Shown here in pieces: positions 31,067 to 58,082 of a stretch of 64,000 nucleotides of DNA. The position numbers were made by a program, and so were the translations under genes. Position 1 is the stretch's first letter. Each line of letters opens with the position of its first letter. The notes beneath the pieces are model-generated. The model was not told the origin of the DNA. It was given only the letters and a program-made list of their open reading frames with translations, and did not search any database. The DNA comes from Deltaproteobacteria bacterium (GTDB lineage Bacteria; Desulfobacterota; Syntrophia; Syntrophales; UBA2210): positions 1 to 64,000 of the forward strand of contig JAFGTS010000014.1 in the NCBI GenBank assembly GCA_016933965.1, read 5' to 3'.

Positions 31067-31130
31067 GCACTCAGGCACTCAGGCACTCAGGCACTCAGGC
31101 ACTCAGGTACTCAGGTACTCAGGTACTCAG
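31067..31130. repeat. 8 x 8-bp tandem repeat, five GCACTCAG then three GTACTCAG
   Basis: Eight consecutive octamers with no other variation. The array ends three bases before the ATG of the release-factor-like gene, so its 3' units form the ribosome-binding region. Confidence 0.95.
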
Positions 31131-36376: not shown

Positions 36377-36387
36377 GGAGGTTCACA

Positions 36388-40500: not shown

Positions 40501-40604
40501 GTCCATTTTGTCTCGAAAAAAGAGATAAAAATGGATTAATTTATCTTTTAAAAAGATACGATATAAAATTTTTCAATGATATATCTGTTATATTTAGAAG
40601 TTTT

Positions 40605-40633
40605 TTGTCATTCAAACGATTATTTTTTCTATA
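40605..40633 (+). promoter_or_regulatory. weak candidate promoter before legB
   Basis: TTGTCA (40605-40610) with TCTATA after 17 bp, or TATAGC after 19 bp. It lies in the 178-bp AT-rich gap between wecB and legB, about 45 bp upstream of the legB start. The region is so AT-rich that chance matches are likely. Confidence 0.3.
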
Positions 40634-40678
40634 GCATTATAAGTAAATAATAACATTGCGAAAAAGGATAAAAGGAAA

Positions 40679-41671: not shown

Positions 41672-41720
41672 AAAATCAAAGCAGGATGATGAAGAGTTAA
41701 AACAGAAAGTTCAAAGCAAA

Positions 41721-42884
41721 ATGACAAAAGAAATATCATCAAAGTCATTTTCAAGAATGATCGATTTCATCAAGTCACTTTATCCGGATGAAAACCCAGT
41801 GCCGTTGCACGCGCCACGGTTTGTCGGAAATGAAAAGAAATATGTCTTAGATGCTATAGATTCAACCTTTGTTTCATCTGTTGGCAAATACGTTGATCGT
41901 TTTGAAGAAATGATATGTGAGATTACAGGTGCAAAATATTCAATAGCAACTGTCAATGGAACATGTGCATTGCATCTTGTTTTAAAGCTTACCGGTGTTC
42001 AGCCAGGCGATGAGGTAATTACCCAGCCTTTGACCTTTGTGGCAACCGCCAATGCTATTGCACACTGCGAAGCGAATCCAATATTCCTTGATGTTGAGCG
42101 AGAAACATTGGGGCTTGATCCAATTGCTTTAAGAAGATTTCTACAAGTCCATACGAGTATTAAGGAGAATGCCTGTTACAATAAAACTACCGGCAATCGA
42201 ATTGCAGCATGTGTTCCCATGCACACCTTTGGCCATCCATGCCGTATCAGTGAAATTGCGGACACTTGTAAGCTTTATAATATTTCACTTATCGAAGATG
42301 CTGCTGAATCACTTGGAAGTACATACAAGCAAAAACACACGGGTACCTTCGGGTTGTTTGGAATTTACAGCTTTAACGGGAATAAAACTGTGACCTGTGG
42401 CGGTGGTGGGGCCATTGTGACTAATAATGAAGATCTTGCGAAAAAAGCAAAACACATAACCACAACTGCCAAAGTGCCCCACCCATATGAATATGTCCAT
42501 GACATGATTGGGTATAACTATCGACTTCCAAATCTCAACGCGGCCGTTGCATGTGCCCAATTGGAACAACTCAATACTTTTATAGAAAAAAAAAGGGAAC
42601 TGGCAAGGCTATACAAGGAATTTTTTAGGTCTTTGAGGATACTTTTTATTGAAGAACCGGCAAACACCCGATCAAATTACTGGCTGAGTGCCGTCATTAT
42701 GCCAGACCGGAAAACACGTGATGAGTTTTTGGAAGCGACAAACGGGGCGGGAGTTATGACTCGTCCCATCTGGAGACTATTAAACAAACTGAACATGTAC
42801 AAGAGTTGCCAGACCGATGCGCTGAAAAACGCGAAATGGCTGGAAAACAGAGTGGTAAATATCCCGAGCAGTGTGAGATTATGA
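41721..42884 (+). CDS. legC: LegC-type PLP aminotransferase
   Basis: A 387-residue DegT/DnrJ/EryC1 aminotransferase. Motifs: VPLHAPRFVGNEKKYVLDAIDSTFVSSVG, typical of LegC, TVNGTCALHLVLKL, EDAAESLGSTYK, and YSFNGNKTVTCGGGG with the PLP Lys. It would add the C4 amino group to the product of LegB. The last residues end at NIPSSVRL, slightly short compared with similar enzymes that continue past the PSS motif. An A9 run occurs at 42586-42594 within the gene. The ATG at 41721 has a poor ribosome site; 41757 is an alternative. The stop overlaps legH by four bases (ATGA). Confidence 0.88.
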   Translation: MTKEISSKSFSRMIDFIKSLYPDENPVPLHAPRFVGNEKKYVLDAIDSTFVSSVGKYVDRFEEMICEITGAKYSIATVNGTCALHLVLKLTGVQPGDEVITQPLTFVATANAIAHCEANPIFLDVERETLGLDPIALRRFLQVHTSIKENACYNKTTGNRIAACVPMHTFGHPCRISEIADTCKLYNISLIEDAAESLGSTYKQKHTGTFGLFGIYSFNGNKTVTCGGGGAIVTNNEDLAKKAKHITTTAKVPHPYEYVHDMIGYNYRLPNLNAAVACAQLEQLNTFIEKKRELARLYKEFFRSLRILFIEEPANTRSNYWLSAVIMPDRKTRDEFLEATNGAGVMTRPIWRLLNKLNMYKSCQTDALKNAKWLENRVVNIPSSVRL

Positions 42885-43501
42885 AGAATGAAATTATTCT
42901 CATGGGTGGTGGCGGTCATTGCAAATCCTGCATCGATGTAATTGAACAGGAGAAAATGTTTCAGATAGCGGGCATTGTAGATCTGCCGGAAAATCTTCAC
43001 CAAAAAATCCTTGGCTATGAAATCATTGCGACAGATAATGACCTGCCACGATTGGTAAAGGAATATAAATACTTTCTGATCACTCTTGGCCAGATCAAAA
43101 GCCCGGACAAACGTAGAAGACTTTTTCAAATCCTGAAAGAATTAGGGGCGATATTTCCTGTAATTATTTCACCTTTTGCCTATGTGTCAAAATACGCAGA
43201 AATCAGAGAAGGAACAATAATAATGCACCAAGCCATGATAAATGTAGGGGCACGGATCGGAAACAATTGTATTATAAACAATAAAGTTTTGATTGAGCAT
43301 GATGCAATTATTGGTGACCATTGCCATATCGCAACTGGCGCCGTTATCAACGGGGGTGTTAAAATTGGTTCAGGAACTTTCTTCGGCAGCAATGCCGTTT
43401 GTAGAGAATATATTGAGATTGGGGAAAATTCCACAATCGGCTTGGGGATAAAAATTACCAGGAATATTTCTACTGGCACAAGTATTAAAACAAACAGATG
43501 A
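42881..43501 (+). CDS. legH: LegH/NeuD-type sugar N-acetyltransferase
   Basis: A 206-residue PglD/NeuD-family acetyltransferase. The N-terminal Rossmann-like part has EIILMGGGGHCKSCIDVIE, and the C-terminal left-handed beta-helix has many hexapeptides (ISKYAEIREGTIIMHQ, IGNNCIINNKVLIEHDAIIGDHCHIATGA) with the catalytic His in IEHDA. It would acetylate the 4-amino group made by LegC. The frame is open upstream to 42806, but the ATG overlapping the legC stop (ATGA) is the natural start. The stop likewise overlaps legI. Confidence 0.87.
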   Translation: MKNEIILMGGGGHCKSCIDVIEQEKMFQIAGIVDLPENLHQKILGYEIIATDNDLPRLVKEYKYFLITLGQIKSPDKRRRLFQILKELGAIFPVIISPFAYVSKYAEIREGTIIMHQAMINVGARIGNNCIINNKVLIEHDAIIGDHCHIATGAVINGGVKIGSGTFFGSNAVCREYIEIGENSTIGLGIKITRNISTGTSIKTNR

Positions 43502-44499
43502 AAAAAACCTTCATAATTGCCGAAGCAGGGGTGAATCATAACGGCAGCCTCGATCTGGCCAAAAAGATGATCGATTCAGCTGCTGATTGCGGTGTGGATG
43601 CGGTCAAATTTCAAACCTTCAAGGCTGAAAAGGTTGTAAGTAAATTTACACCAAAGGCGGAATACCAGAAGGAAAAAACTAAGACTGATGAATCCCATCT
43701 TGAGATGATCAAAAAACTGGAACTGAATGCAGCGGCTCACCAAAGGCTCATCACGCACTGCAATAAGAAGAAGATTCAGTTTTTATCCAGCCCCTTTGAT
43801 CTTGGAAGCATAGACCTATTAAATGAACTTGGTCTCAATATTTTCAAGATACCCTCCGGCGAGATTACAAATCTGCCGTATCTTCGTAAGATCGGATCAT
43901 TAAAAAAAGAAATTATTCTTTCTACCGGCATGGCTGACTTGTATGAGATAGAAGATGCCCTTAATGTCCTTACTAATACCGGTGCAAAATTGAAAGATAT
44001 TACTATCCTTCACTGTAACACTGAATATCCCACACCCATTGAAGACGTTAATCTTAAAGCCATGCTAACGATCAAGTCCACATTCCCCGGTGTTAATATT
44101 GGTTATTCGGATCATACACTTGGAATAGAAATTCCCATTGCCGCTGTGTCAATGGGAGCAACGGTCATTGAAAAACATTTTACTCTTGATAAAAACATGG
44201 AAGGCCCTGATCACAAAGCATCACTTGACCCCAGTGAATTAAAGGCCATGGTTTGTGCAATTCGCAATATAGAAAGAGCGATGGGAAACGGAATTAAGAA
44301 ACCATCACCTTCAGAACTGAAAAATAAACTCATTTCCCGTAAAAGTATTGTGGCATGCCGCGATATCCACAAGGGTGAATTGTTCACCGAAGAAAATCTC
44401 ACCGTAAAGCGACCGGGCACAGGGATTAATCCCATGCGGTGGGATGAGATTATCGGCCAAAAGGCAAAGAGAGATTATCAACAGGATGAGTTAATATGA
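43498..44499 (+). CDS. legI: N,N'-diacetyllegionaminic acid synthase (NeuB family)
   Basis: A 333-residue NeuB-type synthase that condenses phosphoenolpyruvate with the 6-deoxy diacetamido mannose. The TIM-barrel domain starts FIIAEAGVNHNGSLDLAKKMID and includes FQTFKAEKVVS, SSPFDLGSIDLL, KIPSGEITNLP, LSTGMAD, HCNTEYPTP and IGYSDHTLG. The C-terminal SAF (antifreeze-like) domain begins near residue 275 (LISRKSIVACRDIHKGELFTEENL). It is complete. It overlaps both neighbours by four bases. LegI is preferred to sialic-acid or pseudaminic-acid synthase because of its partners LegB, LegC and PtmE. Confidence 0.92.
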   Translation: MKKTFIIAEAGVNHNGSLDLAKKMIDSAADCGVDAVKFQTFKAEKVVSKFTPKAEYQKEKTKTDESHLEMIKKLELNAAAHQRLITHCNKKKIQFLSSPFDLGSIDLLNELGLNIFKIPSGEITNLPYLRKIGSLKKEIILSTGMADLYEIEDALNVLTNTGAKLKDITILHCNTEYPTPIEDVNLKAMLTIKSTFPGVNIGYSDHTLGIEIPIAAVSMGATVIEKHFTLDKNMEGPDHKASLDPSELKAMVCAIRNIERAMGNGIKKPSPSELKNKLISRKSIVACRDIHKGELFTEENLTVKRPGTGINPMRWDEIIGQKAKRDYQQDELI

Positions 44500-45665
44500 G
44501 CCGAAAGATATGCGTTGTCACCGGGACCCGCGCCGAATACGGTCTTCTTTACTGGTTGATGAAAGAGATTCAGGAAGACGCTGATCTTGAACTCCAGCTC
44601 ATTGCCACCGGGATGCATCTTTCTTCTGAATTCGGCTTAACTTTCCGTCAGATAGAGAAAGACGGCTTTGAGATTAATAAAAAGATTGAGATGCTCCTTT
44701 CTTCCGATACCCCGGCAGGTATTTCAAAATCAATGGGACTCGGTATGATCGGTTTTTCAGACGCGTACGAAAACCTAAACCCGGATATTGTTGTCCTTTT
44801 GGGGGATCGATTTGAGATCTTCTCCGCTGCCGCCGCTGCAATGATTAATCGCATACCGATTGCACACTTACATGGAGGTGAGGCGACGGAAGGAGCGTTT
44901 GATGAAGCGATAAGGCATTCAATTACCAAGATGTCGCATATTCACTTTACCGCGACGGAAGAATACAGAAGACGGGTCATTCAACTTGGGGAGTCACCCG
45001 GAAGAGTTTTTAATGTAGGTGGTCTCGGTATCGACAATATTAATAAACTCAAGCTTATGAGTCGGGAGGAATTTGAAAATTCAATAAATTTTAATCTTGG
45101 TTCAAAAAATCTTATGATAACATTTCATCCTGTGACCCTGGAACATGCCACGGCGAGAAAGCAATTCAAGAATATTCTTGATGTCCTTAGTGAACTCAGA
45201 GATACCCACTTTATTTTTACAAAACCGAATGCCGATACCGAAGGCCGTGTTCTGATTGAAATGATTGATGATTATGTTTCCAAAAACAGCCATAATGCCA
45301 CTGCATTTGTCAACCTCGGACAACTCAGATATTTGTCAGCAATGCAATTTGTAGACGGAGTTCTGGGCAATTCATCAAGTGGGTTTACGGAGGCGCCGTC
45401 ACTCAAGATCGGTACGATCAACATAGGAGATCGCCAGCGTGGCAGAATAAGGGCCGATAGTATTATTGATTGTAACCCCACAAAAGAAGCAATTCTGGCC
45501 GCAATTACAAGGCTTTATTCAAAAGAATTCCAATCCAAACTTAAAAACGTAAAAAACCCTTATGGCGAGGGTGGTGCCTCTAAAAAAATCAAGGGAATCA
45601 TTAAAGAAACTAATCTTACAGATATTTTGAAAAAAGAGTTTTATGATGTAAAATTCGAAAAATGA
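44496..45665 (+). CDS. legG: hydrolysing UDP/GDP-sugar 2-epimerase (LegG/NeuC family)
   Basis: A 389-residue NeuC-type enzyme that removes the nucleotide and inverts C2 to give the free mannose-configured sugar for LegI. The N-terminus has KICVVTGTRAEYGLLYWLMKEI, which distinguishes the hydrolysing class from WecB (GARPQFIK). Further blocks are VVLLGDRFEIFSAA, AHLHGGEATEGAFDEAIRHSITKMSHIHF, VGGLGIDNI and GNSSSGFTEAPSLKIGTINIGDRQRGR. Length is standard. It overlaps legI by four bases and is followed by ptmE after 45. Confidence 0.9.
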   Translation: MSRKICVVTGTRAEYGLLYWLMKEIQEDADLELQLIATGMHLSSEFGLTFRQIEKDGFEINKKIEMLLSSDTPAGISKSMGLGMIGFSDAYENLNPDIVVLLGDRFEIFSAAAAAMINRIPIAHLHGGEATEGAFDEAIRHSITKMSHIHFTATEEYRRRVIQLGESPGRVFNVGGLGIDNINKLKLMSREEFENSINFNLGSKNLMITFHPVTLEHATARKQFKNILDVLSELRDTHFIFTKPNADTEGRVLIEMIDDYVSKNSHNATAFVNLGQLRYLSAMQFVDGVLGNSSSGFTEAPSLKIGTINIGDRQRGRIRADSIIDCNPTKEAILAAITRLYSKEFQSKLKNVKNPYGEGGASKKIKGIIKETNLTDILKKEFYDVKFEK

Positions 45666-45710
45666 AACTATCTGTATTCAAGAACTATTTTTTTGGACGA
45701 GGGAAAAGTC

Positions 45711-46769
45711 ATGAAAGACATAACAATTCATCCCGAAGCTACGATTAAGAATGCAATGGAATTACTTGACAAGACAGCACAAAAAGTGCTTCTGGTCGTT
45801 GATAAAGATAACTCGCTGCTTGGTACGTTAACTGATGGTGATATCAGGCGGCATATTCTGAAGGGTAATGATCTTGCTGGAACAATTCAAGGTGCATACA
45901 AAGCAGATCCAATCTGCTCATTTCAGGATAATTTTGATCTGGAAAAAATCAAAACGATTCTTACGAAAAATCAAATAGACCTGGTTCCCATTCTTGATCA
46001 GAACCGAAAAATAGTAGATTACATTACATGGTCAAAGGCTTTCGGAAATAGCAGTCGATCAACTGCAACGCAGCTTGATGCTCCAGTTGTAATAATGGCA
46101 GGAGGTAAGGGAACGCGTCTTGAGCCATTTACGAGAGTTTTGCCCAAACCCCTTATCCCGGTCGGGAACAAACCGGTAATTGATCATATCATCGACAGAT
46201 TCAGGGTTTATGGAATAAGTCAATTTTATTTAACGATTTATCACATGGCCAGGATCATCCGAGCCTATTTTGAAGAAAAAAGGCCGGATTATTCCGTGGA
46301 TATCGCCGAAGAAGATGAACCCAGAGGCACGGCGGGGAGTCTCAAACTCCTTTTAGATAAATTACATAAGCCTTTTTTTGTATCGAACTGTGACGTGGTT
46401 ATAGAGGCCGATTATGCTGATCTTTACCACTTTCATCTGCAAAACAGTAATGATATTACTCTTGTAGCCTCAACAAAACAGTTTAATATACCTTACGGTA
46501 TATGTGAACTGAATGGTGGGGGCAGTCTGGAACGAATAGAGGAAAAGCCCGAGTACAGTTTTTTGGTAAATACAGGGATGTATGTATTGAATCCCTCTGT
46601 CCTTGAATTGATCCCCGACAAACAACTGTTTCATATTACTCACCTGATTGACAGGATAAAGGAAAATGGTGGGCAAATTGGTGTGTATCCAGTAAGTGAA
46701 AAGGCATGGATAGACGTCGGCCAATGGGCAGAATACCGCAAGGCGTTGAAAGTGATTGAGGAAATTTGA
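45711..46769 (+). CDS. ptmE: PtmE-type nucleotidyltransferase with N-terminal CBS pair
   Basis: 352 residues: two CBS domains (about 1-115, LLVVDKDNSLLGTLTDGDIRR and VPILDQNRKIVDYITW) followed by an NTP_transferase domain with VIMAGGKGTRLEPFTRVLPKPLIPVGNKPVIDHII and FFVSNCDVVIEADY. In Campylobacter, PtmE is the guanylyltransferase that makes GDP-glucosamine-type donors, which makes legionaminic acid synthesis GDP-dependent. This gene therefore argues for the GDP route here. ATG at 45711 follows GAGGGAAA; a TTG at 45693 is also in frame. It abuts legF directly. Confidence 0.86.
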   Translation: MKDITIHPEATIKNAMELLDKTAQKVLLVVDKDNSLLGTLTDGDIRRHILKGNDLAGTIQGAYKADPICSFQDNFDLEKIKTILTKNQIDLVPILDQNRKIVDYITWSKAFGNSSRSTATQLDAPVVIMAGGKGTRLEPFTRVLPKPLIPVGNKPVIDHIIDRFRVYGISQFYLTIYHMARIIRAYFEEKRPDYSVDIAEEDEPRGTAGSLKLLLDKLHKPFFVSNCDVVIEADYADLYHFHLQNSNDITLVASTKQFNIPYGICELNGGGSLERIEEKPEYSFLVNTGMYVLNPSVLELIPDKQLFHITHLIDRIKENGGQIGVYPVSEKAWIDVGQWAEYRKALKVIEEI

Positions 46770-47483
46770 ATGATAAACGGGAAATCGGTTTTAGCGATAA
46801 TTCCTGCGCGAGGTGGATCAAAGGGACTGCCGGGGAAGAACATAAAAGAACTGTGCGGTAAGCCTTTGATTGCGTGGAGTATTGAACAGGCTCAATCTTG
46901 TAAGGATATTGATGAAATAGTCGTGTCAACAGATGACGAAGAAATTGCTGAAGTCGCAAAAAAGTATGGCGCAGGAGTACCCTTTATACGTCCTGCAGAA
47001 TTGGCAAATGACACAGCAAAAAGCATAGACGTTATTTTCCACACCATAGAATGGCTCAAAAAACACAAAGGTTACCAAACTGGATATATTCTGCTGTTAC
47101 AACCAACATCACCACTGCGTGCGGAAGAAGACATAGAAAATGCCATCCTGATCTTAAAAGACAAGAATGCTCGGGCAGTTGTCTCTGTGTGTGAAACGGA
47201 TCATCACCCATGGTGGTCCAACATATTGCCCGAAGATGGCAACATGGAATCTTTTATAAGACCGGAGATGATGAATAAACGCAGGCAGGAACTGCCCGTT
47301 TTTTATAAACTGAATGGTGCCATATATCTTGCTGATACGGATTACCTGTATAAATACAATGGATTTTTCGGGCCGGATACCTTTGCTCATAAAATGCCCC
47401 AAAGCCGTTCAGTTGATATTGATTCGGACTTGGATTTCAGTTTGGCGGCATTGTTATTAAGGGAAAAAATGAATGATAGTTGA
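46770..47483 (+). CDS. legF: CMP-legionaminic acid synthetase (NeuA/LegF family)
   Basis: A 237-residue CMP-nonulosonate cytidylyltransferase. The CTP-binding motif is AIIPARGGSKGLPGKNIKELCGKPLI, followed by VVSTDDEEIAEVAKKYG, LLQPTSPLRAEEDIENAI and FYKLNGAIYLADTDYL. The product, a CMP-sugar, is the donor for a sialyltransferase-type enzyme, and a candidate is encoded at 51890. It starts one base after the ptmE stop. A 167-bp non-coding gap with nothing recognisable follows. Confidence 0.9.
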   Translation: MINGKSVLAIIPARGGSKGLPGKNIKELCGKPLIAWSIEQAQSCKDIDEIVVSTDDEEIAEVAKKYGAGVPFIRPAELANDTAKSIDVIFHTIEWLKKHKGYQTGYILLLQPTSPLRAEEDIENAILILKDKNARAVVSVCETDHHPWWSNILPEDGNMESFIRPEMMNKRRQELPVFYKLNGAIYLADTDYLYKYNGFFGPDTFAHKMPQSRSVDIDSDLDFSLAALLLREKMNDS

Positions 47484-47650
47484 AAGCAGACGCCAATAAA
47501 AAATCTTTTTACTTTACGGACAAAGCAAATAAAGAGGCTAGTAATCTGTTTCGGACAATTTTCCCCAATATTATGTCACTGGTCGGCACATAATCGTGGA
47601 TGATTTTGGATGTGCGACAATGCAAATGAAGAAGCGAAGATATCAATAGA

Positions 47651-48628
47651 ATGATAAAAATTGCTTTAATCGGTGCAGGTCAACTTGGCAGTCGCCACTT
47701 ACAGGCCTTGGCTAAGATTGATATGCCCGTGATTTTACAGGTTGTAGACCCCAACAAAGACTCTCTGAAAGTAGCACGAGAGAGATACCTGGATATTCCA
47801 GTAAACAACAATATAGAACGTATCGATTTTCTGGAAGGAATGGCAAACCTGAATGTAAGCATTGATTTATGTGTTATTGCCACAAACGCGGACGTTCGAT
47901 TTAAGGTTTTCAAGGAATTGATCGGCAAAACGAAAGTCGCGAATATAATCTTCGAAAAGATTCTATTTCAATCAAAAAAGCAATTTAACGATGCAAAAGA
48001 ATTAATTAATCAGAAAGGTATTTCATGCTGGGTAAATTGTGCCCGCCGAATGTACCCAATATATAACAAAATAAAGGAAATGATGGCGGAAGATAACAAG
48101 ATTTGTGTACAAGTATCAGGAGGAGAGTGGGGATTAGCCTGTAACGCCATGCACTTTATCGACCTGCTGGCATTTATGTGCCGCAACACTTCGTATGAAC
48201 TGGATATTGCGGGCCTTGATCCCGTGGTCTTGCAAAGTAAACGAAAGGGTTTTGTAGAGGTGACCGGAAAGATCACCGGGGTTTTTTCAAATGGAAGCAG
48301 TATTGAGCTTGAATCAATTGCCGGTAAAAAAGAGCCCCCCCGGATTTCAATAAATAACTCACAAATAAAAATTGTACTTGATGAGAGCCGTGGTGAGGCA
48401 ACTGTTGCCAGAGAGGAAAATAACTGGAATGAAAAGATGTTGAAATTTACGGTGCCTTTTCAGAGTGAACTCACTCACCTGGAAGCAAAAGTAATCTTGG
48501 AGACTGGTACTTGTAAACTGCCTGATTATAATGAAAGTTCTATGCTGCACGAGCCTTTTTTAGACGCCATAAAAAAGCATATAGAGACTGTTGAACATAG
48601 AACATATGATTGCTGCCCGATAACATAA
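47651..48628 (+). CDS. Gfo/Idh/MocA-family oxidoreductase (PtmF-position)
   Basis: A 325-residue predicted dehydrogenase. The N-terminal NAD(P) fold is IKIALIGAGQLGSRHLQALAKI; the second region has VNCARRMYPIYNKIKE and SGGEWGLACNAMHFIDLLAFM, in place of the usual EKP and catalytic His motifs (here FEKILFQSKKQ). In Campylobacter legionaminic clusters an oxidoreductase of this group lies beside ptmE, which suggests a role in making or modifying the sugar. No defined reaction can be assigned. A C7 run occurs at 48335-48341. ATG at 47651. Confidence 0.75.
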   Translation: MIKIALIGAGQLGSRHLQALAKIDMPVILQVVDPNKDSLKVARERYLDIPVNNNIERIDFLEGMANLNVSIDLCVIATNADVRFKVFKELIGKTKVANIIFEKILFQSKKQFNDAKELINQKGISCWVNCARRMYPIYNKIKEMMAEDNKICVQVSGGEWGLACNAMHFIDLLAFMCRNTSYELDIAGLDPVVLQSKRKGFVEVTGKITGVFSNGSSIELESIAGKKEPPRISINNSQIKIVLDESRGEATVAREENNWNEKMLKFTVPFQSELTHLEAKVILETGTCKLPDYNESSMLHEPFLDAIKKHIETVEHRTYDCCPIT

Positions 48629-48705
48629 CGGGCTTAACATTCGAAGATCACAACCCCCGCCCGTTTACTCCTTTCAGATTTCACCTCGATAATTTGGAGG
48701 ATCAA

Positions 48706-49707
48706 ATGCCTTACAATACATTGCTGTCAATACCGGAAAGAGATTTTTCTGACAAGAAAGTCCTCATCATAGGTGCCGGCTGGATGGCGATGCAATATTG
48801 TATTGCGCTGACACAAATGGGTGTCAGAAATGTCAGTGTTGTATCCCGATCGGAAAAGTCGGCTAAGGTATGTTTTGATAAGTTTGGATTCCATTCCTAT
48901 CATGGGGGCTATGAACAATGTCTGCCGAATCTTGACACGTTTGATCTGGTTGTTGTTGCGACATCAGTGCATGAGTTGAAACCTGCATCCATGTGCGCAA
49001 TAGAATGCCGTAATAAAAATATCCTGGTTGAGAAACCTGCATCACTCTATTCGAGTGAGCTTTTTGAATGGGCAAGACAATCAGATGACAGCTATGCAAG
49101 AATACGCATTGCCTATAATCGCCTGACCTATCCCAATTTATGGAAACTCAAGCAATGTGTTCACGCTGAAGGAGGAATAACCTCATGCAGATATACGTTT
49201 ACAGAACTGGTACACGCCATCAATTTCAATAAGGACCAACCTGACGTTTATGAAAGATGGGGAATCGCGAATTCGCTGCACGTTATCTCCATGGCCCATG
49301 ATCTTATTGGAATGCCGGAAGAAATAAGAACATATCAGTATGGTAAATGTAATTGGCATCCTAGTGGTGATCGTTTTGTGGGAGCCGGTGTTACCCGGGG
49401 AAATATCCCTTTTTCCTATCATGCGGACTGGAGTTCCGCAGGTCGATGGGGAATAGAAATCATGACACCTGAAAATGCCTATCGGTTGATTCCATTGGAA
49501 CAACTTTATCGATGCAAAAAAGGTTCTTTTAATTGGGAACTTGTTGAGACAACTTCAGCTTACCCTTATGCAAAACAGGGGATCGCAGAAGAAGTGGCAA
49601 TAATGCTTGCCTTGGAACTTGAAAAGGCAGTTCCATTGGTTGATATAAAAAAAGCTGCGGAATATACAAAATTGGCGGAAGTGATTCTGGGATATTCTCT
49701 TATTTAA
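48706..49707 (+). CDS. second Gfo/Idh/MocA-like oxidoreductase
   Basis: A 333-residue protein with an NAD(P)-binding N-terminus (KKVLIIGAGWMAMQYCIALTQMG), the conserved VEKPASLYSSELF and RIAYNRLTYPNLWKLK, then HVISMAHDLIG in the second domain. It differs clearly from the preceding oxidoreductase and is not a duplicate. The frame extends upstream to 48610, overlapping that gene, but GGAGG five bases before the ATG at 48706 fixes the start. Its place after the leg genes suggests modification of a nonulosonic acid or neighbouring sugar; the substrate is unknown. Confidence 0.72.
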   Translation: MPYNTLLSIPERDFSDKKVLIIGAGWMAMQYCIALTQMGVRNVSVVSRSEKSAKVCFDKFGFHSYHGGYEQCLPNLDTFDLVVVATSVHELKPASMCAIECRNKNILVEKPASLYSSELFEWARQSDDSYARIRIAYNRLTYPNLWKLKQCVHAEGGITSCRYTFTELVHAINFNKDQPDVYERWGIANSLHVISMAHDLIGMPEEIRTYQYGKCNWHPSGDRFVGAGVTRGNIPFSYHADWSSAGRWGIEIMTPENAYRLIPLEQLYRCKKGSFNWELVETTSAYPYAKQGIAEEVAIMLALELEKAVPLVDIKKAAEYTKLAEVILGYSLI

Positions 49708-49726
49708 AATTATTGGTAAAAACAAC

Positions 49727-50434
49727 ATGAAAAAGAAGAAACGGGTTTTGATCATAGGCGATTCTCTGGCAATGCCACGCCCTGACGTATGCTATGAAGA
49801 TACATGGGTATACAAGTTAATTAAAGCGCTTCCTGAGTTGGAATTTATCGATAAAACGATGCGTGCGTCTACTTCTGAACGATTGGTAACTGAAGGGGGG
49901 GGGGATAATAACAATCCATACGGTGCTGATCTTTTGGAGCATTATATGCCTGATATCGTCGTTATGCAAATCGGTATTGTGGATTGTGCCCCGAGGTACA
50001 TAAAAAAAGGTAGCTTAGAAAATATAATACTCAACAGAATTATGCCGCGAAGTATGCGCACAGTATATATGGATTTAATAAAAAAGAATCGTGTAAGAGA
50101 CCCTCAAAAAGCTTATGTTCCGAGACATAGATTTCGGTCAAATCTCTCTAATTACTTTCAAAGAGCAGATAACCACAATGTAAAAGTCATAGCCATAATG
50201 ATTGCGCCTGTGACCAGTGCGTTCATCGATAAAAGTCCCTTCGCAAATCAAAGTATAAAAAATTATAATAATATTTATCATGATCTCAGTAGAGATTTTG
50301 GAAATGTTGATTTGGTGTATCCTTTTGATGATGTAATAAATTTGGAAGATGTTACTATTGATGGCTACCATATTAACTTAGAAGGACACGATATTATTTT
50401 TCGAATACTTATGAAACAGATATGTCCAAAATAA
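49727..50434 (+). CDS. SGNH/GDSL-type hydrolase containing a poly-G tract
   Basis: A 235-residue SGNH-hydrolase-like protein. Block I is GDSLAMP (residues about 10-16) with the nucleophile Ser; block V is DGYHINLEGH with the Asp-His pair; MQIGIVDCAP may represent the Gly/Asn blocks. No signal peptide. Such enzymes in glycan clusters remove or transfer O-acetyl groups. A run of ten G (49895-49904) codes for Gly57-Gly59 and the first base of the next codon, so a slip of one base would truncate the protein. Its last 13 bases overlap wzx. Confidence 0.75.
   Translation: MKKKKRVLIIGDSLAMPRPDVCYEDTWVYKLIKALPELEFIDKTMRASTSERLVTEGGGDNNNPYGADLLEHYMPDIVVMQIGIVDCAPRYIKKGSLENIILNRIMPRSMRTVYMDLIKKNRVRDPQKAYVPRHRFRSNLSNYFQRADNHNVKVIAIMIAPVTSAFIDKSPFANQSIKNYNNIYHDLSRDFGNVDLVYPFDDVINLEDVTIDGYHINLEGHDIIFRILMKQICPK
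49895..49904 (+). repeat. G10 homopolymer inside the SGNH hydrolase gene
   Basis: Ten consecutive G, the longest G/C homopolymer noticed in the window, in otherwise AT-rich coding DNA. Such tracts switch surface-glycan genes on and off in Campylobacter and Helicobacter. The tract is now in the reading-through length. Confidence 0.9.
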
Positions 50435-51870
50435 TTAAAAATACATTCCTTTACTCTATTGGCAATATCATTCCCCAGGCAGCGGGGTTTTTCCTCCTGC
50501 CGATTTATACACGTTATTTAACACCCGCCGATTATGGGATTGTCAGTTCCATGCAAGTTCTAAATACGATTCTCGCGGTTTTTTTTACCCTTGCTATTGA
50601 ACGGTCTGTTTATCGTCTTTACTGGGATTATAAAACAGAAAAGGGAAAGAAGGATTATTTAGGTTCCGTAGTTGTAGCGCTGTGTAGTATAGCCACCATA
50701 ATTTTGTTGTTATTATTTCTGTTTAAAGGTTTCGTGGGGTTGATTTATAAATCAATACCCTTCTATCCGTTTTATGCCTATGCCATTGTAACTGCTTATT
50801 TCTCAGTGCTGGGGCTCATACCTAAGATATACTTACAGTTGAAACAGAAAGCCGCAAGCTTTGTGATACTATCTATAATGCAGTTTGCTGCTAATACCAC
50901 ATTCATCCTTTGGTTCATCGTGGGATTGAAAGCTGGTGCTGAAGGTATGCTTAAGGGTCAGATGCTCGGATATGGAGTAATGCTTCCTGTATTCCTGTTT
51001 ATAGGATTTAGGATAATCAATTATACTGTTAATCTCTCGATTTTGAGAGAAAGTCTAAAGTTCAGTTTGCCGATGATACCTGCGTTGCTCAGCGCTTGGG
51101 TTTTAAATTTGTCTGACAGGATTTTTATAGAAAGATATTTTTCATTAGCGGATGTTGGAATATATTCATTGGGATACAAAATTGCAGGACTTGTATTAAT
51201 CCTATCAAGTGCTTTCAATATGGCATACGAGCCGCTTTTTTATAACTTAGCCAATTCTGACGATCAATTAATGGCCAGAAAAAAGCTTTTTTTTTATAAT
51301 AATACGTTTGTGATGGTCATTTTAGTTATATGTTTTTTTGTCAGCCTGTTTTCCAAAGAAGCCATAGTTATTTTACTGGATGAGAGATATGCAGAAGCCT
51401 ACAAGATAGTTCCAATCATAGCCCTAGCTTATTTTATTTCGCAAGCTGGAGGTCTTATGAATCGTTTGATTTATCAGGAGAAGAAAACGTTTGCCCTCAT
51501 GATAATAGTAATATTTGGCGCATTATTAAATATTGGTCTCAATTTTTTGTTCGTCCCCCCATTAGGAGCATACGGTGCTGCTTACGCAACAGTATTATCT
51601 TTTGCAGGATTATTTGCCGTTGAGTACTGGTATGCAAAGAAATGCTACTTTATCAATTACGACTGGAGCAAAATCATAAAGGGATTGCTGATTGCTATAC
51701 CAATTGCATCTACAGCGTATTTTATAGAAGTGAACATCCTTCTCTCTTTGTTCATAAAGTTAATTGTAGTATCAATTGCTTCAATGTTTTTATATGCGCG
51801 TTTTGGAGTTCAACTTAAGTCTGTCTTTGCGGGCAAAAACAATGAGAACGAGCTCACTGATTCTATCTGA
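50422..51870 (+). CDS. wzx: Wzx-type polysaccharide flippase
   Basis: A 482-residue MOP-superfamily transporter with about 12-14 membrane helices. The N-terminus FLYSIGNIIPQAAGFFLLPIYTRYLTPADYGIVS is characteristic. Later features are SLPMIPALLSAWVLNLSDRIFIERYFSLADVGIYSLGYKIA and two repeats of the bundle. It would move the undecaprenyl-linked repeat unit across the inner membrane for Wzy polymerisation. Length fits Wzx. A T9 run (51297-51305) lies within the gene. The start overlaps the SGNH gene by 13 bases. The DNA is strongly AT-rich. Confidence 0.92.
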   Translation: MSKIIKNTFLYSIGNIIPQAAGFFLLPIYTRYLTPADYGIVSSMQVLNTILAVFFTLAIERSVYRLYWDYKTEKGKKDYLGSVVVALCSIATIILLLLFLFKGFVGLIYKSIPFYPFYAYAIVTAYFSVLGLIPKIYLQLKQKAASFVILSIMQFAANTTFILWFIVGLKAGAEGMLKGQMLGYGVMLPVFLFIGFRIINYTVNLSILRESLKFSLPMIPALLSAWVLNLSDRIFIERYFSLADVGIYSLGYKIAGLVLILSSAFNMAYEPLFYNLANSDDQLMARKKLFFYNNTFVMVILVICFFVSLFSKEAIVILLDERYAEAYKIVPIIALAYFISQAGGLMNRLIYQEKKTFALMIIVIFGALLNIGLNFLFVPPLGAYGAAYATVLSFAGLFAVEYWYAKKCYFINYDWSKIIKGLLIAIPIASTAYFIEVNILLSLFIKLIVVSIASMFLYARFGVQLKSVFAGKNNENELTDSI

Positions 51871-51889
51871 ATTAATATTGGATTAGTAA

Positions 51890-52885
51890 ATGCTTTCGAA
51901 CTATGTTGCTGAAAGAGCCGAGTTGTTTTATTGCCTTTCATATCAGGCATTTCTGATGGGGCTCTATTTGATTCGTTGTGGCAGAAGGATAGTATTTGTC
52001 ACACAAAATCAAAATATTATCAGAACATGTGAGCAACTTGATCTTGAGGTTATAAAACTTGTCTCATTTTCTCAGAAGCATATATGTTTCAATTCAGGAA
52101 AGGTGAAAAAATATATTAATCAGTTATGTTTACTGGGCGATGGTGTACCTCTGCACTTTTCACATACGCAATTTGATAGTTTTTGTTTTTTATTGATCAA
52201 CGCTTATTCAAAAGTAGCCCCGATATTTTTTTATAATTTTGAGGTTGAATATGGTGTGGTTGAAAAAATATCGCTCGATTATGGTTTTTTGAAGACATTA
52301 TTTCTTCGCCTCATGATGAAAAAGATATATGAATGCGAATGCGTTATTAAAAAAGTGAGAGGTGTTTATCTGATCGGCATAGATAGGGAATTTTTAGAGA
52401 GACATAACATAGAGACAGTAGATAATAAAGATACCTATTATGAACAGATTGCAGAGGCAATAAAAGACAGGCAAATTGAGTTGAAAAAATGTCAGAATCT
52501 CTTTTTATATCAGGACTTCTCAAATGTGACGTGGCAAAGGTCCATAAATGCAATATACGACTTATTAAATAAGAAAGACTTTGTTGTAAAATCACATCCA
52601 AGTAAAAAAATTGCTGAAGCAGCTCTCAGAAATATGTGCCAATATCCAAAACACCTGCCTTCTGAGTTAATATTTGGTAATATTGATAAAAATGTTGTCG
52701 CAATATATTCATCTTCATTGATTAGTGCATCAAAATTTTCTCATCTCAAGGCAATAAGTCTTATTGAACTTGTGGAGTGGCGTAACAATGATTATAAAAT
52801 GTTTCTTAAAAAAGACCTTGTAACAAATTCAAATGGGAAAATATTTTTCCCTGAAAGTTTTGATGAGTTGTCTGCGCTTTTATAA
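51890..52885 (+). CDS. candidate sialyltransferase-like (nonulosonyl) glycosyltransferase
   Basis: A 331-residue soluble protein with no obvious common family. Features of bacterial sialyl- and polysialyltransferases are visible in order: an acidic-Gly site LLGDGVPLHFS (about 81-91), the CMP-binding HP motif in FVVKSHPS (H236-P237), LPSELIFGN (PxEL-type, 257-264), and a serine motif AIYSSSLISAS (271-281). The HP and SS/T motifs contact CMP in known enzymes. The preceding pathway makes a CMP-linked legionaminic acid, which needs such a transferase. The assignment is by motif and context; the overall similarity is too weak for a family number. ATG at 51890, 20 bases after wzx. Confidence 0.55.
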   Translation: MLSNYVAERAELFYCLSYQAFLMGLYLIRCGRRIVFVTQNQNIIRTCEQLDLEVIKLVSFSQKHICFNSGKVKKYINQLCLLGDGVPLHFSHTQFDSFCFLLINAYSKVAPIFFYNFEVEYGVVEKISLDYGFLKTLFLRLMMKKIYECECVIKKVRGVYLIGIDREFLERHNIETVDNKDTYYEQIAEAIKDRQIELKKCQNLFLYQDFSNVTWQRSINAIYDLLNKKDFVVKSHPSKKIAEAALRNMCQYPKHLPSELIFGNIDKNVVAIYSSSLISASKFSHLKAISLIELVEWRNNDYKMFLKKDLVTNSNGKIFFPESFDELSALL

Positions 52886-53031
52886 AAAATAAAACACTTT
52901 TCTTTGATCCAGATGATTTATTCAATGCTCATATTTGGCGAAGTCATGAAAAGCTCCATGGTGCCGAAAAACCAGCATTTTGATTTTTAACTGCTTGAAT
53001 ATATTAAATGCAAATTAAAAATTGCCACTTT

Positions 53032-53052
53032 ATGACTTTTTGACGAAGTCAT
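53032..53052. repeat. ATGACTT/AAGTCAT hairpin, dispersed GACTTTTTACGAAGTC-type
   Basis: ATGACTT (53032-53038) pairs with AAGTCAT (53046-53052) around TTTGACG. It lies in the 191-bp gap between the sialyltransferase-like and CatB-like genes, which has no other feature, and matches the type seen at 1911, 2072 and 13161. Confidence 0.65.
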
Positions 53053-53076
53053 CATATTTATTGATACACACTCATT

Positions 53077-53787
53077 ATGCCGGTTAACTTAAATAAAATA
53101 TTAAAAATCACTGCTCAAAGTGTGCCCGCCTGTTTAACCATTGCTGCGATGAATACCATCATGCGCCTCAAATACAACGTTAAGATAATGAAAAATTGTA
53201 AAGTTAAGATCGACTGTGAGTTTGAAGGGCATAATGCCGTGTTTCACAATACTGAAATATCGAATTCAATCCTTGGGTTGTTTTCTTATGTTGCTGAAAA
53301 TTCCGTCATTCGGAGCACAAAGATTGGTAGATTCTGTGCTATTGGGGACTATGTGAGAACGGGAGTAGGACGCCATCCCATCGATACGATGGTTAGTATT
53401 CATCCCGCATTTTTTTCGCTTAAGAAACAGGCAGGAATAACTTTCGCTCAAGAGCAACTATTCCATGAACATTTATATGTAGATGCAGAGAGAAGATTTG
53501 TTGTTGATATTGGCAATGATGTGTGGATTGGCAATAATGTTACGATAATGGATGGAATTATTGTATCTGATGGCGCGGTTATTGGTGCTGGTGCAGTAGT
53601 AACAAAAGATGTTGCCCCATATTGCGTAGTTGGTGGAATACCTGCAAGGGCGATAAGATACCGTTTTAGTAAAGAAGAAAGGAAGTTTCTCCAAGAATTT
53701 AAGTGGTGGGAGAAAGACGTTAATTGGCTCGCAAGAAATGCACACTTGTTTTGTGATATAGAAAAATTCATGAAAAATGTTGGTTAA
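53077..53787 (+). CDS. CatB-related O-acetyltransferase (hexapeptide repeat)
   Basis: A 236-residue left-handed beta-helix acetyltransferase. SVIRSTKIGRFCAIGDYVRTGVGRHPIDTMVSIHPAFFS carries the His-loop of the CatB/xenobiotic group, followed by DIGNDVWIGNNVTIMDGIIVSDGAVIGAGAVVTKDVAPYCVVGGIPARAIRYRF. The C-terminal W-rich helix is also typical. Acetylates a sugar hydroxyl, probably in the O-unit. The N-terminal 35 residues are hydrophobic-basic and may lie on the membrane. A single gene, with a 99-base gap to the following glycosyltransferase. Confidence 0.87.
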   Translation: MPVNLNKILKITAQSVPACLTIAAMNTIMRLKYNVKIMKNCKVKIDCEFEGHNAVFHNTEISNSILGLFSYVAENSVIRSTKIGRFCAIGDYVRTGVGRHPIDTMVSIHPAFFSLKKQAGITFAQEQLFHEHLYVDAERRFVVDIGNDVWIGNNVTIMDGIIVSDGAVIGAGAVVTKDVAPYCVVGGIPARAIRYRFSKEERKFLQEFKWWEKDVNWLARNAHLFCDIEKFMKNVG

Positions 53788-53886
53788 TATAATAACAATA
53801 ATAACAGGTTTATTAATGAGAAAAATGACATAAAAACAAGTCATTTAATATGAATAAGAATACTCCCGAAATGAAGAGCAGCAGCA

Positions 53887-54795
53887 GTGATTCAAAATAA
53901 AGCCGCCAGAGTATTTGTTATTATAACTTGTCATAATCAACTTCATGCGATTAAGCGGTGTTTGTCATCTCTTTTCAAACAAACATTTAAAAACATATCC
54001 CTTGTTGTTGTTGACGATGGGAGCAATGACAATACGTCTGAATTCCTCAGCCAGATTGGCAATAACACAGTGGTATTGCGTGGCGATGGCAACTTGTGGT
54101 GGGGCGGTGGGGTTTTGCGCGGCTATGAATCAATTTCTCATGTTGTGCAGGAGAGTGACTATATATATCTTGTCAATTGTGATGTCGAACTTAAAGAAGA
54201 CTGTTTGGAAAAACTTCTTTTTTTCCTTGAATCAAAGAAAAACAGCTGCATCGCACACTCTCTTACAGTAAACCAGTCAGACCGAGAAACTATAATTACT
54301 TGCGGGAGTAATATTAAAAGTTGGGCATTATTTCTTACAGATCACCCTCTGAGAGGAATGAAGCGTTCTCAGATTGATTTTGCGCCCGTTGCTATTGAGA
54401 CAGTTACCGCACGGTCCCTTTTAATTCCTAATAATGTAATAGAAAAAGTTGGTTTTATAGACGGCAAAGCTTTTCCTCATTATGGTGGTGACAGCGATTT
54501 CGGAGTACGCTGTAAGCGATTGGGATTTCAGCCTTTTGTGGTTCCACAAAGTGTCTGTTATTTGGATATTCTTTCTACAGGTAACAACCCGGGATTAGAT
54601 AGCGCTTCACTGAGGGATAAAATGGGAGGGCTTTTTTCCATCAAATCAACCAACAACCTTAAATATCGATGGAAATTTGGTCGTAACATAGAGAAAGGAT
54701 ATTTACGCATTCCATATTTTATATCGGTATGCGCACAGGTATTCGGGGGCATTATTGTCGAGATTCTTAGATCATTAGGAAGAAGATTATCATAA
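53887..54795 (+). CDS. family 2 glycosyltransferase (rhamnosyltransferase-like)
   Basis: A 302-residue GT-A enzyme. VFVIITCHNQLHAIKRCLSSLFKQTFKNISLVVVDDGSNDNTSEFL is the classical GT2 N-terminus, and YIYLVNCDVELKEDCLEKLL contains the DxD-type position (here CDV). WGGGVLRGYE and HYGGDSDFGVRCKRLGF fit the rhamnosyltransferase-like subgroup. No TM helices except a weak C-terminal hydrophobic segment. Start GTG at 53887 with a weak AAGAG. Donor and acceptor are unknown. It belongs to the AT-rich island. Confidence 0.85.
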   Translation: MIQNKAARVFVIITCHNQLHAIKRCLSSLFKQTFKNISLVVVDDGSNDNTSEFLSQIGNNTVVLRGDGNLWWGGGVLRGYESISHVVQESDYIYLVNCDVELKEDCLEKLLFFLESKKNSCIAHSLTVNQSDRETIITCGSNIKSWALFLTDHPLRGMKRSQIDFAPVAIETVTARSLLIPNNVIEKVGFIDGKAFPHYGGDSDFGVRCKRLGFQPFVVPQSVCYLDILSTGNNPGLDSASLRDKMGGLFSIKSTNNLKYRWKFGRNIEKGYLRIPYFISVCAQVFGGIIVEILRSLGRRLS

Positions 54796-54826
54796 AAAAT
54801 TTTCTTAAAGGCACGATATTAAATCC

Positions 54827-56194
54827 ATGACCTGCCGCCACGATTCTTCTTTTTACAATTCACACGATAGAAAAATTTTAGATGTTACGTCTATGCCTGC
54901 CAGAGGATATTCGCTGAATAAGTCTTTGTCAGTTGATACGAATTCAGACGGGATAGGTAATGCCGGAAGCCTTCTTGTTTGGATTGCAACAGTTTTCTTT
55001 GTTGCAAAATATTTCATCTGTAGGGGACCTCGCCCTCTAGATCTAATAAATATAGTTTCCGTTGAAACCGCAGGAATACTTACTGTGTATTTCCTTTCAC
55101 TATTGAAGGGGACTGTAAGAATTAATATTAAATATGTGATGTTTATTATAGGTGGTTATATTATTTTGCTCGGTCATCTTATGTTAGTGATTGATCACTT
55201 CACTTTTGAATATATCATCAAGCTGTCGCGATTATATGCATATATAGTCATTATTTTGATTTTTGCTATGCATTTCTTTAACTGGCATGTTTTTTATCGT
55301 GTATTGCTTACATTTTGTTATGCATCTTTGTTTCTTACAGTAATCGGGGCGTTTTTTTTCCCGAACTATTTTGTAGAGATAGGATATGGTTTTACTCGGT
55401 GGCGTGCCATGTTTTCGGAACCATCAGCGTTTGCGCCAGTAATAAGTATCGTGTTGTTTGATTCTCTGGTGCGAAAGAGGATTTTAGGGATTATATTATC
55501 TCTTTTCGTAGCTCATCTTGTGGCTTCCGGGACTGTATATGTTGTCATGGTACTTATGGCCATTATGTTTTGTGTCAGATACGTTATATTTCAAAAACGA
55601 AACATTAAAAAGCTTATCATCTTGTTTTCAGTGCCGTTATTTATAATGATAACAGTCGTTTTTTTATTGGTGTATCAGTCAGAAGTTATGAAAATACTTG
55701 ATAATAGCTTTAATTACGGAAGAATCGTCACTTCTATCCAAAGTGTTTCTGAAGAAGGTCATGGCAATTCAAGACTCCGTTCCCTGTTTAATTATTATAA
55801 AATCTTTAAGAACGAAGGCGGTCTATTTTTTGGTCGTGGTTTTAATGCAGCAACAGTTTTTTTCGGGGAAGAAAGCGGAGAAAATATTAATAGAGAATAT
55901 TCTATCCTTCATTCGTTTTTCTTTGCTTTTGGTATTATTGGAAGCGCTGCGCTAATATTTATTCTGTTCATGACATGGTTTTATTTAAATAAAACGGGCA
56001 ATGTGTTTATGTTAATAACATATTCAGCCTTTCTTTTTTCTTCTCTCTTGAATAGTTCGGGAGGACATACCCTTTATAAATTTTGTTACATCTTTATCCT
56101 TTCATCCATAATATATGGGAAAGATGGATTGCCGGGCTATGCGCGGAGCATCAAAAACCCTTCAATTTTCAGGAGGAGCGTTGAAGTGGCGTGA
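54827..56194 (+). CDS. wzy: Wzy-type O-antigen polymerase
   Basis: A 455-residue polytopic membrane protein with about 11 hydrophobic helices. There is a large periplasmic loop near residues 275-340 containing GHGNSRLRSLFNYYKIFKNEGGLFFGRGFNAA, as in O-antigen ligase/polymerase proteins. MFSEPSAFAPVISIVLFDSL is the usual glycan-polymerase block. The N-terminal 40 residues are hydrophilic, unusual for Wzy, so the true start may be later than the ATG at 54827. It polymerises O-units at the periplasmic face. The last 14 bases overlap the alternative TTG start of the next gene. Confidence 0.85.
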   Translation: MTCRHDSSFYNSHDRKILDVTSMPARGYSLNKSLSVDTNSDGIGNAGSLLVWIATVFFVAKYFICRGPRPLDLINIVSVETAGILTVYFLSLLKGTVRINIKYVMFIIGGYIILLGHLMLVIDHFTFEYIIKLSRLYAYIVIILIFAMHFFNWHVFYRVLLTFCYASLFLTVIGAFFFPNYFVEIGYGFTRWRAMFSEPSAFAPVISIVLFDSLVRKRILGIILSLFVAHLVASGTVYVVMVLMAIMFCVRYVIFQKRNIKKLIILFSVPLFIMITVVFLLVYQSEVMKILDNSFNYGRIVTSIQSVSEEGHGNSRLRSLFNYYKIFKNEGGLFFGRGFNAATVFFGEESGENINREYSILHSFFFAFGIIGSAALIFILFMTWFYLNKTGNVFMLITYSAFLFSSLLNSSGGHTLYKFCYIFILSSIIYGKDGLPGYARSIKNPSIFRRSVEVA

Positions 56195-56204
56195 AGAATT
56201 GGAT

Positions 56205-57416
56205 ATGAAAATTATCTATCTCCATCAATATTTTAATACCCCTTCTATGTCAGGTGGAACGCGTTCATATGAGATGGCGAGACGTTTCATTATTGCAGGA
56301 CATGAAGTACATATGATCACGTCACAAAGAGAGAATTCTCGTTATTTTTACAGATGGATGGAAGAAAATATTGATGGTATTCATGTCTACTGGTTACATG
56401 TGCCTTATTCAAACAAGATGAGATTTACGGCACGAATAATGGCTTTTATGAAGTTTGCCCTTTTATCCGCCCTAAAGGCTGTAAAAGTTGGTGGAGATAT
56501 AATATTTGCAACCAGTACTCCATTAACTATTGCCTTACCAGCAGTGTATGCTGCCCGGCGGTTGAAAAAACCGATGGTTTTTGAAGTGCGAGATCTGTGG
56601 CCGGAGATACCCATTGCCGTGGGCGCGATCAAGAACATATTTTTAAAAAAGGCAACGAGATGGTTTGAGTGTTTTGCTTACAAGAATTCAGAAGCCATAG
56701 TAGCTTTATCTCCTGGCATGGCTGCAGGTATAATTAAAACTGGGTATCCAGAAAACAAGGTGTATGTAGTACCCAACAGCTGTGATATTGAGATGTTTCA
56801 AATTTCAGAAAGCGAGAGGGATGCGTTTCTGAGGTTACACCCGGATTTGCGGGATGGGCCACTTGTTCTTTACGCAGGTACGCTTGGTCTCATTAATGGA
56901 GTTGGATATCTTGTTGAAATAGCAACTGCTATGATACGAATCGATGCATCGGTTCGTTTTTTGATTGTTGGTGAAGGTAAGGAACAAAAGAAAATTAGGG
57001 AAAAAGCCTTTAGTGCCGGTGTGCTGGGAAAAAATCTATGGATGTTGCCGTCGGTCTCAAAATCAGAGATGCCGCATTTACTTTCGGCAGCAACAATAAC
57101 GAGTTCGTTCGTTATAAATTTGAAGGAACTGTGGAATAATTCTGCAAATAAGTTTTTTGATGCATTAGCTGCTGGACGGCCAATTATGATAAATTATGGC
57201 GGATGGCAGGCGGATTTGATACGTGAAACAGGGGCTGGATTGGTTGTGCCGCCAAATGATGCCTTACGATCCGCTGAGATACTGCATGATTTTCTTTCCG
57301 AACCAGGTAGGGTAACAAGGGCCGGACAAGCGGCCTTTAAACTAGCCAAGTCCCGCTTTGCACGTGATGATTTAGCAGAAGAATTGTTGGCAGTATTGGA
57401 AAAAACATGTGGCTGA
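56205..57416 (+). CDS. family 4 glycosyltransferase (WbuB-like)
   Basis: A 403-residue GT-B enzyme. The N-terminus MKIIYLHQYFNTPSMSGGTRSYEMARRFI is typical of WbuB/WcaI proteins that transfer sugars such as L-FucNAc. EVRDLWPEIPIAVGAIK, VALSPGMAAGIIKTGYP, VPNSCDIEMF and the C-terminal nucleotide-sugar region ALAAGRPIMINYGGWQADLIRETGAGLVVPP follow. The ATG at 56205 is chosen by homology, but a TTG at 56181 has the much stronger ribosome site AGGAGGAG and overlaps the wzy stop, so it may be the real start (411 residues). GC content is intermediate. Confidence 0.88.
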   Translation: MKIIYLHQYFNTPSMSGGTRSYEMARRFIIAGHEVHMITSQRENSRYFYRWMEENIDGIHVYWLHVPYSNKMRFTARIMAFMKFALLSALKAVKVGGDIIFATSTPLTIALPAVYAARRLKKPMVFEVRDLWPEIPIAVGAIKNIFLKKATRWFECFAYKNSEAIVALSPGMAAGIIKTGYPENKVYVVPNSCDIEMFQISESERDAFLRLHPDLRDGPLVLYAGTLGLINGVGYLVEIATAMIRIDASVRFLIVGEGKEQKKIREKAFSAGVLGKNLWMLPSVSKSEMPHLLSAATITSSFVINLKELWNNSANKFFDALAAGRPIMINYGGWQADLIRETGAGLVVPPNDALRSAEILHDFLSEPGRVTRAGQAAFKLAKSRFARDDLAEELLAVLEKTCG

Positions 57417-57443
57417 AACTACCGATGTAGCAGCAACAAACGT

Positions 57444-58082
57444 ATGAGGATGATGTCTGTTTATGAACCGCACAAGAAACCGGGAAGACAGCTCTTTGAT
57501 CTGGCGATTGCTGTTCCTTCCATGATCATTCTAGTGCCCGTTTTGTGTGTGATAGGATTCCTGGTACGCCTTAAGATTGGGTCGCCGGTCCTTTTCCGCC
57601 AGATACGTCCAGGGTTGCATGGCAGGCCTTTTACCATCTATAAGTTTCGCACTATGACGGATGAAAGGAATAAGGACGGGAGTCTGTTACCTGACAGACA
57701 CCGCTTGACTAAATTCGGACGTTTTCTTCGGAGCACCAGTTTGGATGAATTGCCAGAATTGTTAAATGTTTTAAAGGGCGATATGAGTGTTGTCGGACCC
57801 AGACCATTACTTATGCAATATTTAGAGAGATATACACCCGAGCAGGCGCGCCGCCATGAAGTAAAGCCGGGTATCACAGGTTGGGCGCAGATAAATGGTC
57901 GTAATGCAATTACCTGGGAAGAAAAATTTCAGTATGATGTATGGTATGTCGATAATCAATCATTCTGGCTGGATTTAAAAATTATTATTTTAACGATTTG
58001 GAAAATTTTGAAACGTGAGGGAATTAATCAGCCAGGGCAAGCAACAATGGAAGAATTTATAGGATCAAAAAACAATGAGTGA
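57444..58082 (+). CDS. pglC: initiating sugar-phosphate transferase (PglC-type, monotopic)
   Basis: A 212-residue phosphoglycosyl transferase. A single N-terminal re-entrant hydrophobic segment (about 17-42) is followed by the core domain: GSPVLFRQIRPGLHGRPFTIYKFRTMTDERN, SLDELPELLNVLKGDMSVVGPRPLL with the catalytic Asp-Glu pair, and RRHEVKPGITGWAQINGRN. These enzymes load the first sugar phosphate onto undecaprenyl phosphate. Small size and neighbours pglE and pglF suggest UDP-diNAcBac or a related sugar as donor. The last eight bases overlap the next acetyltransferase. Confidence 0.9.
   Translation: MRMMSVYEPHKKPGRQLFDLAIAVPSMIILVPVLCVIGFLVRLKIGSPVLFRQIRPGLHGRPFTIYKFRTMTDERNKDGSLLPDRHRLTKFGRFLRSTSLDELPELLNVLKGDMSVVGPRPLLMQYLERYTPEQARRHEVKPGITGWAQINGRNAITWEEKFQYDVWYVDNQSFWLDLKIIILTIWKILKREGINQPGQATMEEFIGSKNNE

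Follow-up and report, generated by a model that had tools for sequence, protein, structure and literature searches.

G tracts as long as the one described here act as switches in other bacteria (PMC6321876). In Campylobacter, poly-G tract lengths peak at 9 (53%) and 10 (26%), and lengths of 7 and 8 are rarer (PMC6321876). Genes for sugar O-acetylation can also be switched: oafA of H. influenzae is phase-variable, and oafB of Salmonella is epigenetically controlled (PMC9558356). The run of ten Gs described here lies in an SGNH/GDSL-like hydrolase gene of a Deltaproteobacteria bacterium, in the first 64,000 nucleotides of contig JAFGTS010000014.1 (hereafter the window). A switch and a chance run can be told apart by the genome-wide distribution of run lengths together with the comparison of homologues. 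Runs this long occur in this genome about as often as expected by chance, and homologues do not share the tract. The reading that we therefore consider probable is that the predicted protein is a functional ester hydrolase (or acyl transferase) of the SGNH type, and that its G10 is an incidental, slippage-prone stretch encoding a Gly-Gly-Gly loop.

The SGNH gene (49727..50434, plus strand) encodes 235 amino acid residues and is intact, or ON, at G10. The tract (49895..49904, plus strand) contributes the codons GGG-GGG-GGG and the first base of GAT (Gly57-Gly59 and Asp60), and the ORF is in frame across it, reading GAA-GGG-GGG-GGG-GAT or E56 G57 G58 G59 D60. Direct reading of the sequence gives exactly ten Gs, an ORF open from 49727 to 50434 at that length and a surrounding GC of 0.37, confirming the position and the AT-rich coding context given in an earlier note on this DNA. 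The tract lies 168 bases inside the ORF, within the first quarter of the gene, and regulation by promoter spacing was therefore ruled out. Promoter-like matches in the surrounding cluster were not above those in shuffled sequence (56 versus 54.4).

The frames downstream of the tract were read for each slippage outcome. One additional G (G11) adds a glycine followed by TAA, giving a 60-residue product, while the loss of two (G8) leads to the same stop and a product one residue shorter, of about 60 residues. G9 or G12 instead yields 32 aberrant residues and a stop at about 91 residues. This means that truncation after about residue 60, as the earlier note had proposed, applies to G11 and G8 but not to G9 and G12. 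All frame-shifted products lack in-frame sequence from the tract onward as well as the DGYH (DxxH) block.

The note's assignment to the SGNH hydrolases is supported, in that the protein is SGNH-like. The protein scores 32.5 bits against Pfam PF13472 (GDSL-like lipase), 0.4 below the gathering cut-off of 32.9, and a Helicobacteraceae relative (L044) clears that cut-off with 38.5 bits. A PDB sequence search with the SGNH protein gave no significant match, so a fold search was needed. Using an AlphaFold2 model built from four sequences (mean pLDDT 80.3), the best Foldseek matches in the PDB were mostly SGNH esterases and thioesterases, with E values down to 1.9e-9; they include the acetylxylan esterase Axe2 and TesA, and the catalytic domain of C. 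jejuni PatB ranks 47th. Alignments place the putative nucleophile Ser13 in block I (G11-D12-S13, 49757..49765, plus strand), and in an eight-sequence alignment D12, S13 and L14 of G11-D12-S13-L14 are invariant. Block III (G83-I-V-D86, 49973..49984, plus strand), located by alignment, has D replacing the usual N; in the eight sequences G83 and D86 are invariant and the Asn of GxND is replaced. Alignment also identifies block V (D212-G-Y-H215, 50360..50371, plus strand), which is the block absent from every frame-shifted product, and D212 and H215 are, like S13, invariant. The conserved Gly of block II is missing, with MRAST in the window protein versus GGAT or GGGT in Sphingomonas and Parvibium. 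Divergent SGNH proteins often lack this Gly, and SGNH membership therefore rests on the fold and the triad. No N-terminal secretion signal was evident on inspection, and the protein would remove or transfer an acetyl group.

The tract falls within an insertion of 7-9 residues, E56-P64 (codons 49892..49918, plus strand), which is absent from all homologues aligned. Residues 57-66 form one of two segments with pLDDT below 50 in an otherwise good model. The tract-bearing loop, probably disordered according to the model, tolerates glycine runs and would be dispensable and at the surface.

The earlier note pointed to phase-variable acetyl-modifying enzymes in surface glycan loci of other bacteria, and the gene lies in a low-GC, nonulosonate-type Wzx cluster. 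This polysaccharide cluster (40500..58000, plus strand) has a GC of 0.39, while neighboring 2-kb bins are mostly at 0.49-0.59. It encodes a NeuB-type synthase (43498-44499) and a NeuC-type UDP-GlcNAc 2-epimerase (44496-45665), together spanning 43498..45665 on the plus strand and both above NCBIfam cut-offs, and a CMP-nonulosonate cytidylyltransferase-like protein (46770..47483, plus strand; PseF-like, below cut-off). A dehydratase, a DegT aminotransferase, a PglD-like acetyltransferase and a CBS-nucleotidyltransferase are also encoded upstream. These genes are followed by a Gfo/Idh/MocA oxidoreductase (47651..48628, plus strand) and, directly 5′ of the SGNH gene, a Gfo/Idh/MocA-like oxidoreductase (48706..49707, plus strand) whose start ATG at 48706 follows GGAGG. 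On the 3′ side, a Wzx-like polysaccharide flippase (50422..51870, plus strand) has its start within the last bases of the SGNH gene, the two sharing 50422-50434, and a polysialyltransferase-like protein and glycosyltransferases come after it. Such a set of genes would be expected where a legionaminic-acid-like sugar is built into a polysaccharide of the Wzx type. The overlap suggests translational coupling, and a frameshift in the SGNH gene could therefore be polar on the flippase.

Simple repeats are also found elsewhere in the window. Positions 31067-31130 hold eight tandem octamers GCACTCAG, the last three being GTACTCAG. Only 3 bases separate the array from the start codon (ATG) of a release-factor-like ORF (31134-31550), in whose 5′ leader it is a possible length-variable element. 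Heptamer-type repeats GGATTAAGGATTAC, similar to the octamer array, occur at 35876-35934, 36342-36377 and 59527-59560, beyond both ends of the AT-rich cluster.

Members of the SGNH family are scattered over Campylobacterota and Pseudomonadota. A Sphingomonadaceae plasmid (L008) carries a full-length homologue (28% identity, E 1e-9) in a gene order closely like that of the window, comprising a cytidylyltransferase, an extra SDR gene, two Gfo/Idh genes, the SGNH gene and a flippase, and the Sphingomonas (L010) and Parvibium (L011) loci match this order. The oxidoreductase gene at 47651..48628 is syntenic with all three loci, a Gfo/Idh/MocA-like gene is the upstream neighbor of the SGNH gene in these and in L087, and an SGNH/flippase overlap of the same kind occurs in the plasmid and Sphingomonas loci. 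In the plasmid locus (CP099622.1), the SGNH gene occupies 5956-6645; its open frame begins about 390 bases before the start of the annotated CDS (6343-6645), which lacks the N-terminal region carrying the catalytic Ser block. Of the relatives, L087 has the highest identity (32%); it and L088 are Campylobacterota members more distant than those of the Helicobacteraceae. None of these five homologues (L008, L010, L011, L087 and L088) has a G tract, and in the alignments no homologue shares the tract position of the window. In genomes sampled from the family, order and phylum of the window, the gene itself was joined by no more than two weak profile matches, both N-terminal (L051, L113), so the tract could not be compared within these groups. 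Searches of phage, viral contigs and single-sequence genome contigs for the SGNH gene gave no matches.

Long G runs were surveyed on both strands of the genome, a draft of 2.85 Mb in 55 contigs, with exact run lengths counted by pattern searches. There are 194 runs of G7, 35 of G8, 2 of G9 and 2 of G10, and none longer; no excess of long runs over chance was found in this genome. Extending the decay from 7 to 8, about 1.4 runs of at least 10 are expected compared to 2 observed (P(>=2) = 0.40). Runs of at least 9 total four, of which the SGNH tract is the only one in a surface-sugar gene. The second G10 (C13:33704-33713) encodes Ser-Gly-Gly-Gly-Val in a radical-SAM/DUF2344 protein. Of the two G9 runs, one encodes Gly-Gly-Gly within a dihydroorotase-like amidohydrolase and one is either in a short ORF or intergenic. 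Most of the G8 runs examined encode Gly-Gly or Pro-Pro in long ORFs. Across the order, 121 of 155 genomes contain at least one G10 (overlapping matches counted). In Campylobacter, tract lengths peak at 9-10 (PMC6321876), while those of the window's genome show the opposite pattern, a smooth decay, and this genome is therefore without a poly-G phasome. Overlapping G9 matches number 267 in a Helicobacter genome (G534) versus 6 in the window's genome.

The local picture is different. The other runs of at least G8 examined have a local GC of 0.47-0.60, compared to 0.37 at the SGNH tract. Within the AT-rich stretch (40.5-58 kb; 17.5 kb at GC 0.39), the longest other G run has 5 bases, and a first-order Markov model predicts 0.006 runs of G>=10 and 0.002 of C>=10, about 0.008 in total. 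This figure is post hoc, since the G10 was already known when the stretch was picked. The G10 is unusual locally, yet ordinary genome-wide.

An incidental tract would work as follows. The three glycines encoded by the G10 would form a turn in a surface loop that is dispensable and probably disordered. The enzyme would act in the cytoplasm, on an O-acyl group of a nonulosonate (sialic- or legionaminic-like) or its precursor, before the Wzx step. Occasional slippage would produce rare null cells without being selected as a switch, and, given the overlap, frameshifted cells would probably translate less flippase as well. This reading is favored by the smooth decay of run lengths, by other long runs at Gly-Gly-Gly in housekeeping-type genes, and by the unshared, low-pLDDT insertion. 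Counting against it are the low local GC, the local expectation of about 0.008, the surface-sugar gene, the early position of the tract, which would make a switch effective, and the variable tracts of the Helicobacteraceae.

Those variable tracts came to light when 121 genomes from the family to which a Helicobacter locus (L009) belongs were searched with profiles; five contained members of the SGNH family. In four of the five, a tract occupies a common site immediately ahead of the second strand and about 20 residues upstream of the window's site: G9 and open in G534, G10 and open in G590, G11 and open in G597, and, in G595, G10 with the gene broken into two frames at precisely that point. 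In the fifth (G594), the contig starts just past this site. The tracts are at 4100-4108 of L009, 1633-1642 of L044, 2010-2020 of L046 (minus strand) and 2061-2070 of L045 (minus strand), the last gene being frame-broken at its tract. The gene just 5′ of the SGNH gene also has a G10-G11 tract in all four genomes (L009 3652-3661; L044 1176-1186; L046 2406-2416; L045 2482-2492). Judged from their sequences, the Helicobacteraceae members of the family are apparently phase-variable. A full-text literature search joining phase variation, GDSL and Helicobacter returned nothing beyond a review. Given the G9-G11 tracts and the frame-broken allele of these relatives, poly-G switching of this enzyme type is plausible in organisms that make use of such tracts.

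Such relatives lend some weight to the explanation that the window's tract is a selected contingency locus, which we regard as unlikely. High-rate slipping would then produce ON (G10) and OFF (about 60- or 91-residue) cells, and surface-sugar acylation, perhaps with flippase output via the overlap, would vary in the population. The tract is in frame, early in the gene, within a polysaccharide cluster and locally improbable, and tracts of this length have precedent as switches, but long G runs are not in excess in the genome, other long runs sit in housekeeping-type genes, and the five non-Helicobacteraceae homologues do without a tract. A common origin of the two tracts, in the window and in Helicobacter, was rejected: their positions differ, and the tree, although poorly resolved near the window sequence, requires the tract label to change twice, with one origin in 4% of bootstrap trees. 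Since the site is different, the window's tract would, if a real switch, be of independent origin. What the earlier note had called a candidate phase-variable SGNH hydrolase thus stands as an SGNH-like protein of a surface-sugar cluster that a one-base slip truncates and whose Helicobacteraceae relatives have variable tracts; its phase variation is opposed by the run-length decay, the long runs in housekeeping-type genes and the unshared tract position. If the tract did vary, it would be one isolated surface switch in an organism without a phasome.

A broader and more doubtful proposal is that poly-G switching has repeatedly targeted the SGNH esterases of nonulosonate clusters, with two independent origins at different loops (in the Helicobacteraceae and in the window's lineage), and that the window's switch would set both acylation and polymer export via the Wzx overlap. 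It is improbable that the tract is a relic, no longer selected, of a gene that arrived with the AT-rich cluster from a poly-G-switching donor. The cluster GC of 0.39 against about 0.55 nearby, the scattered family and its near absence from sampled genomes of the order and phylum are consistent with such an arrival, but the tract site is not that of the Helicobacteraceae, the closest relative by identity lacks a tract, and the other cluster genes have no G run longer than 5. A true tract length other than ten is very improbable: the assembly is a draft in 55 contigs and homopolymers are error-prone, but with ten Gs the reading frame runs on through the conserved blocks III and V, which is what a correct length should give, although a length error of a multiple of three would likewise keep it open.

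Compared to described SGNH/GDSL hydrolases (PF13472; Axe2, TesA and PatB), the window protein has the fold, the GDS nucleophile block and the DxxH block in common, but it is only about 12-18% identical to these structural matches, lacks the block II Gly and has GIVD rather than GxND. The Sphingomonadaceae, Sphingomonas and Parvibium loci largely share the window's gene order and encode SGNH proteins about 25-29% identical to the window's; they have an extra SDR gene after the cytidylyltransferase and neither the insertion nor a G tract, and the window differs in all three respects. The Helicobacteraceae genes (L009/L043, L044, L045 and L046) belong to the same protein family and, as in the window, have the tract in a loop within the first third of the protein; the L009 gene also lies near a NeuC-like gene, as in the window's NeuC-type cluster. 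Their tract, however, is about 20 residues earlier, is common to four genomes and includes one frame-broken allele, and the L009 genome is full of poly-G tracts whereas the window's has no phasome. An apparently phase-variable SGNH gene family in the Helicobacteraceae is thus a by-product of this analysis. Finally, oafA and oafB switch surface-sugar acylation on and off (PMC9558356), the behavior proposed for the window's gene; they are AT3 membrane acyltransferases, whereas the window's is a stand-alone SGNH protein and only a candidate switch.
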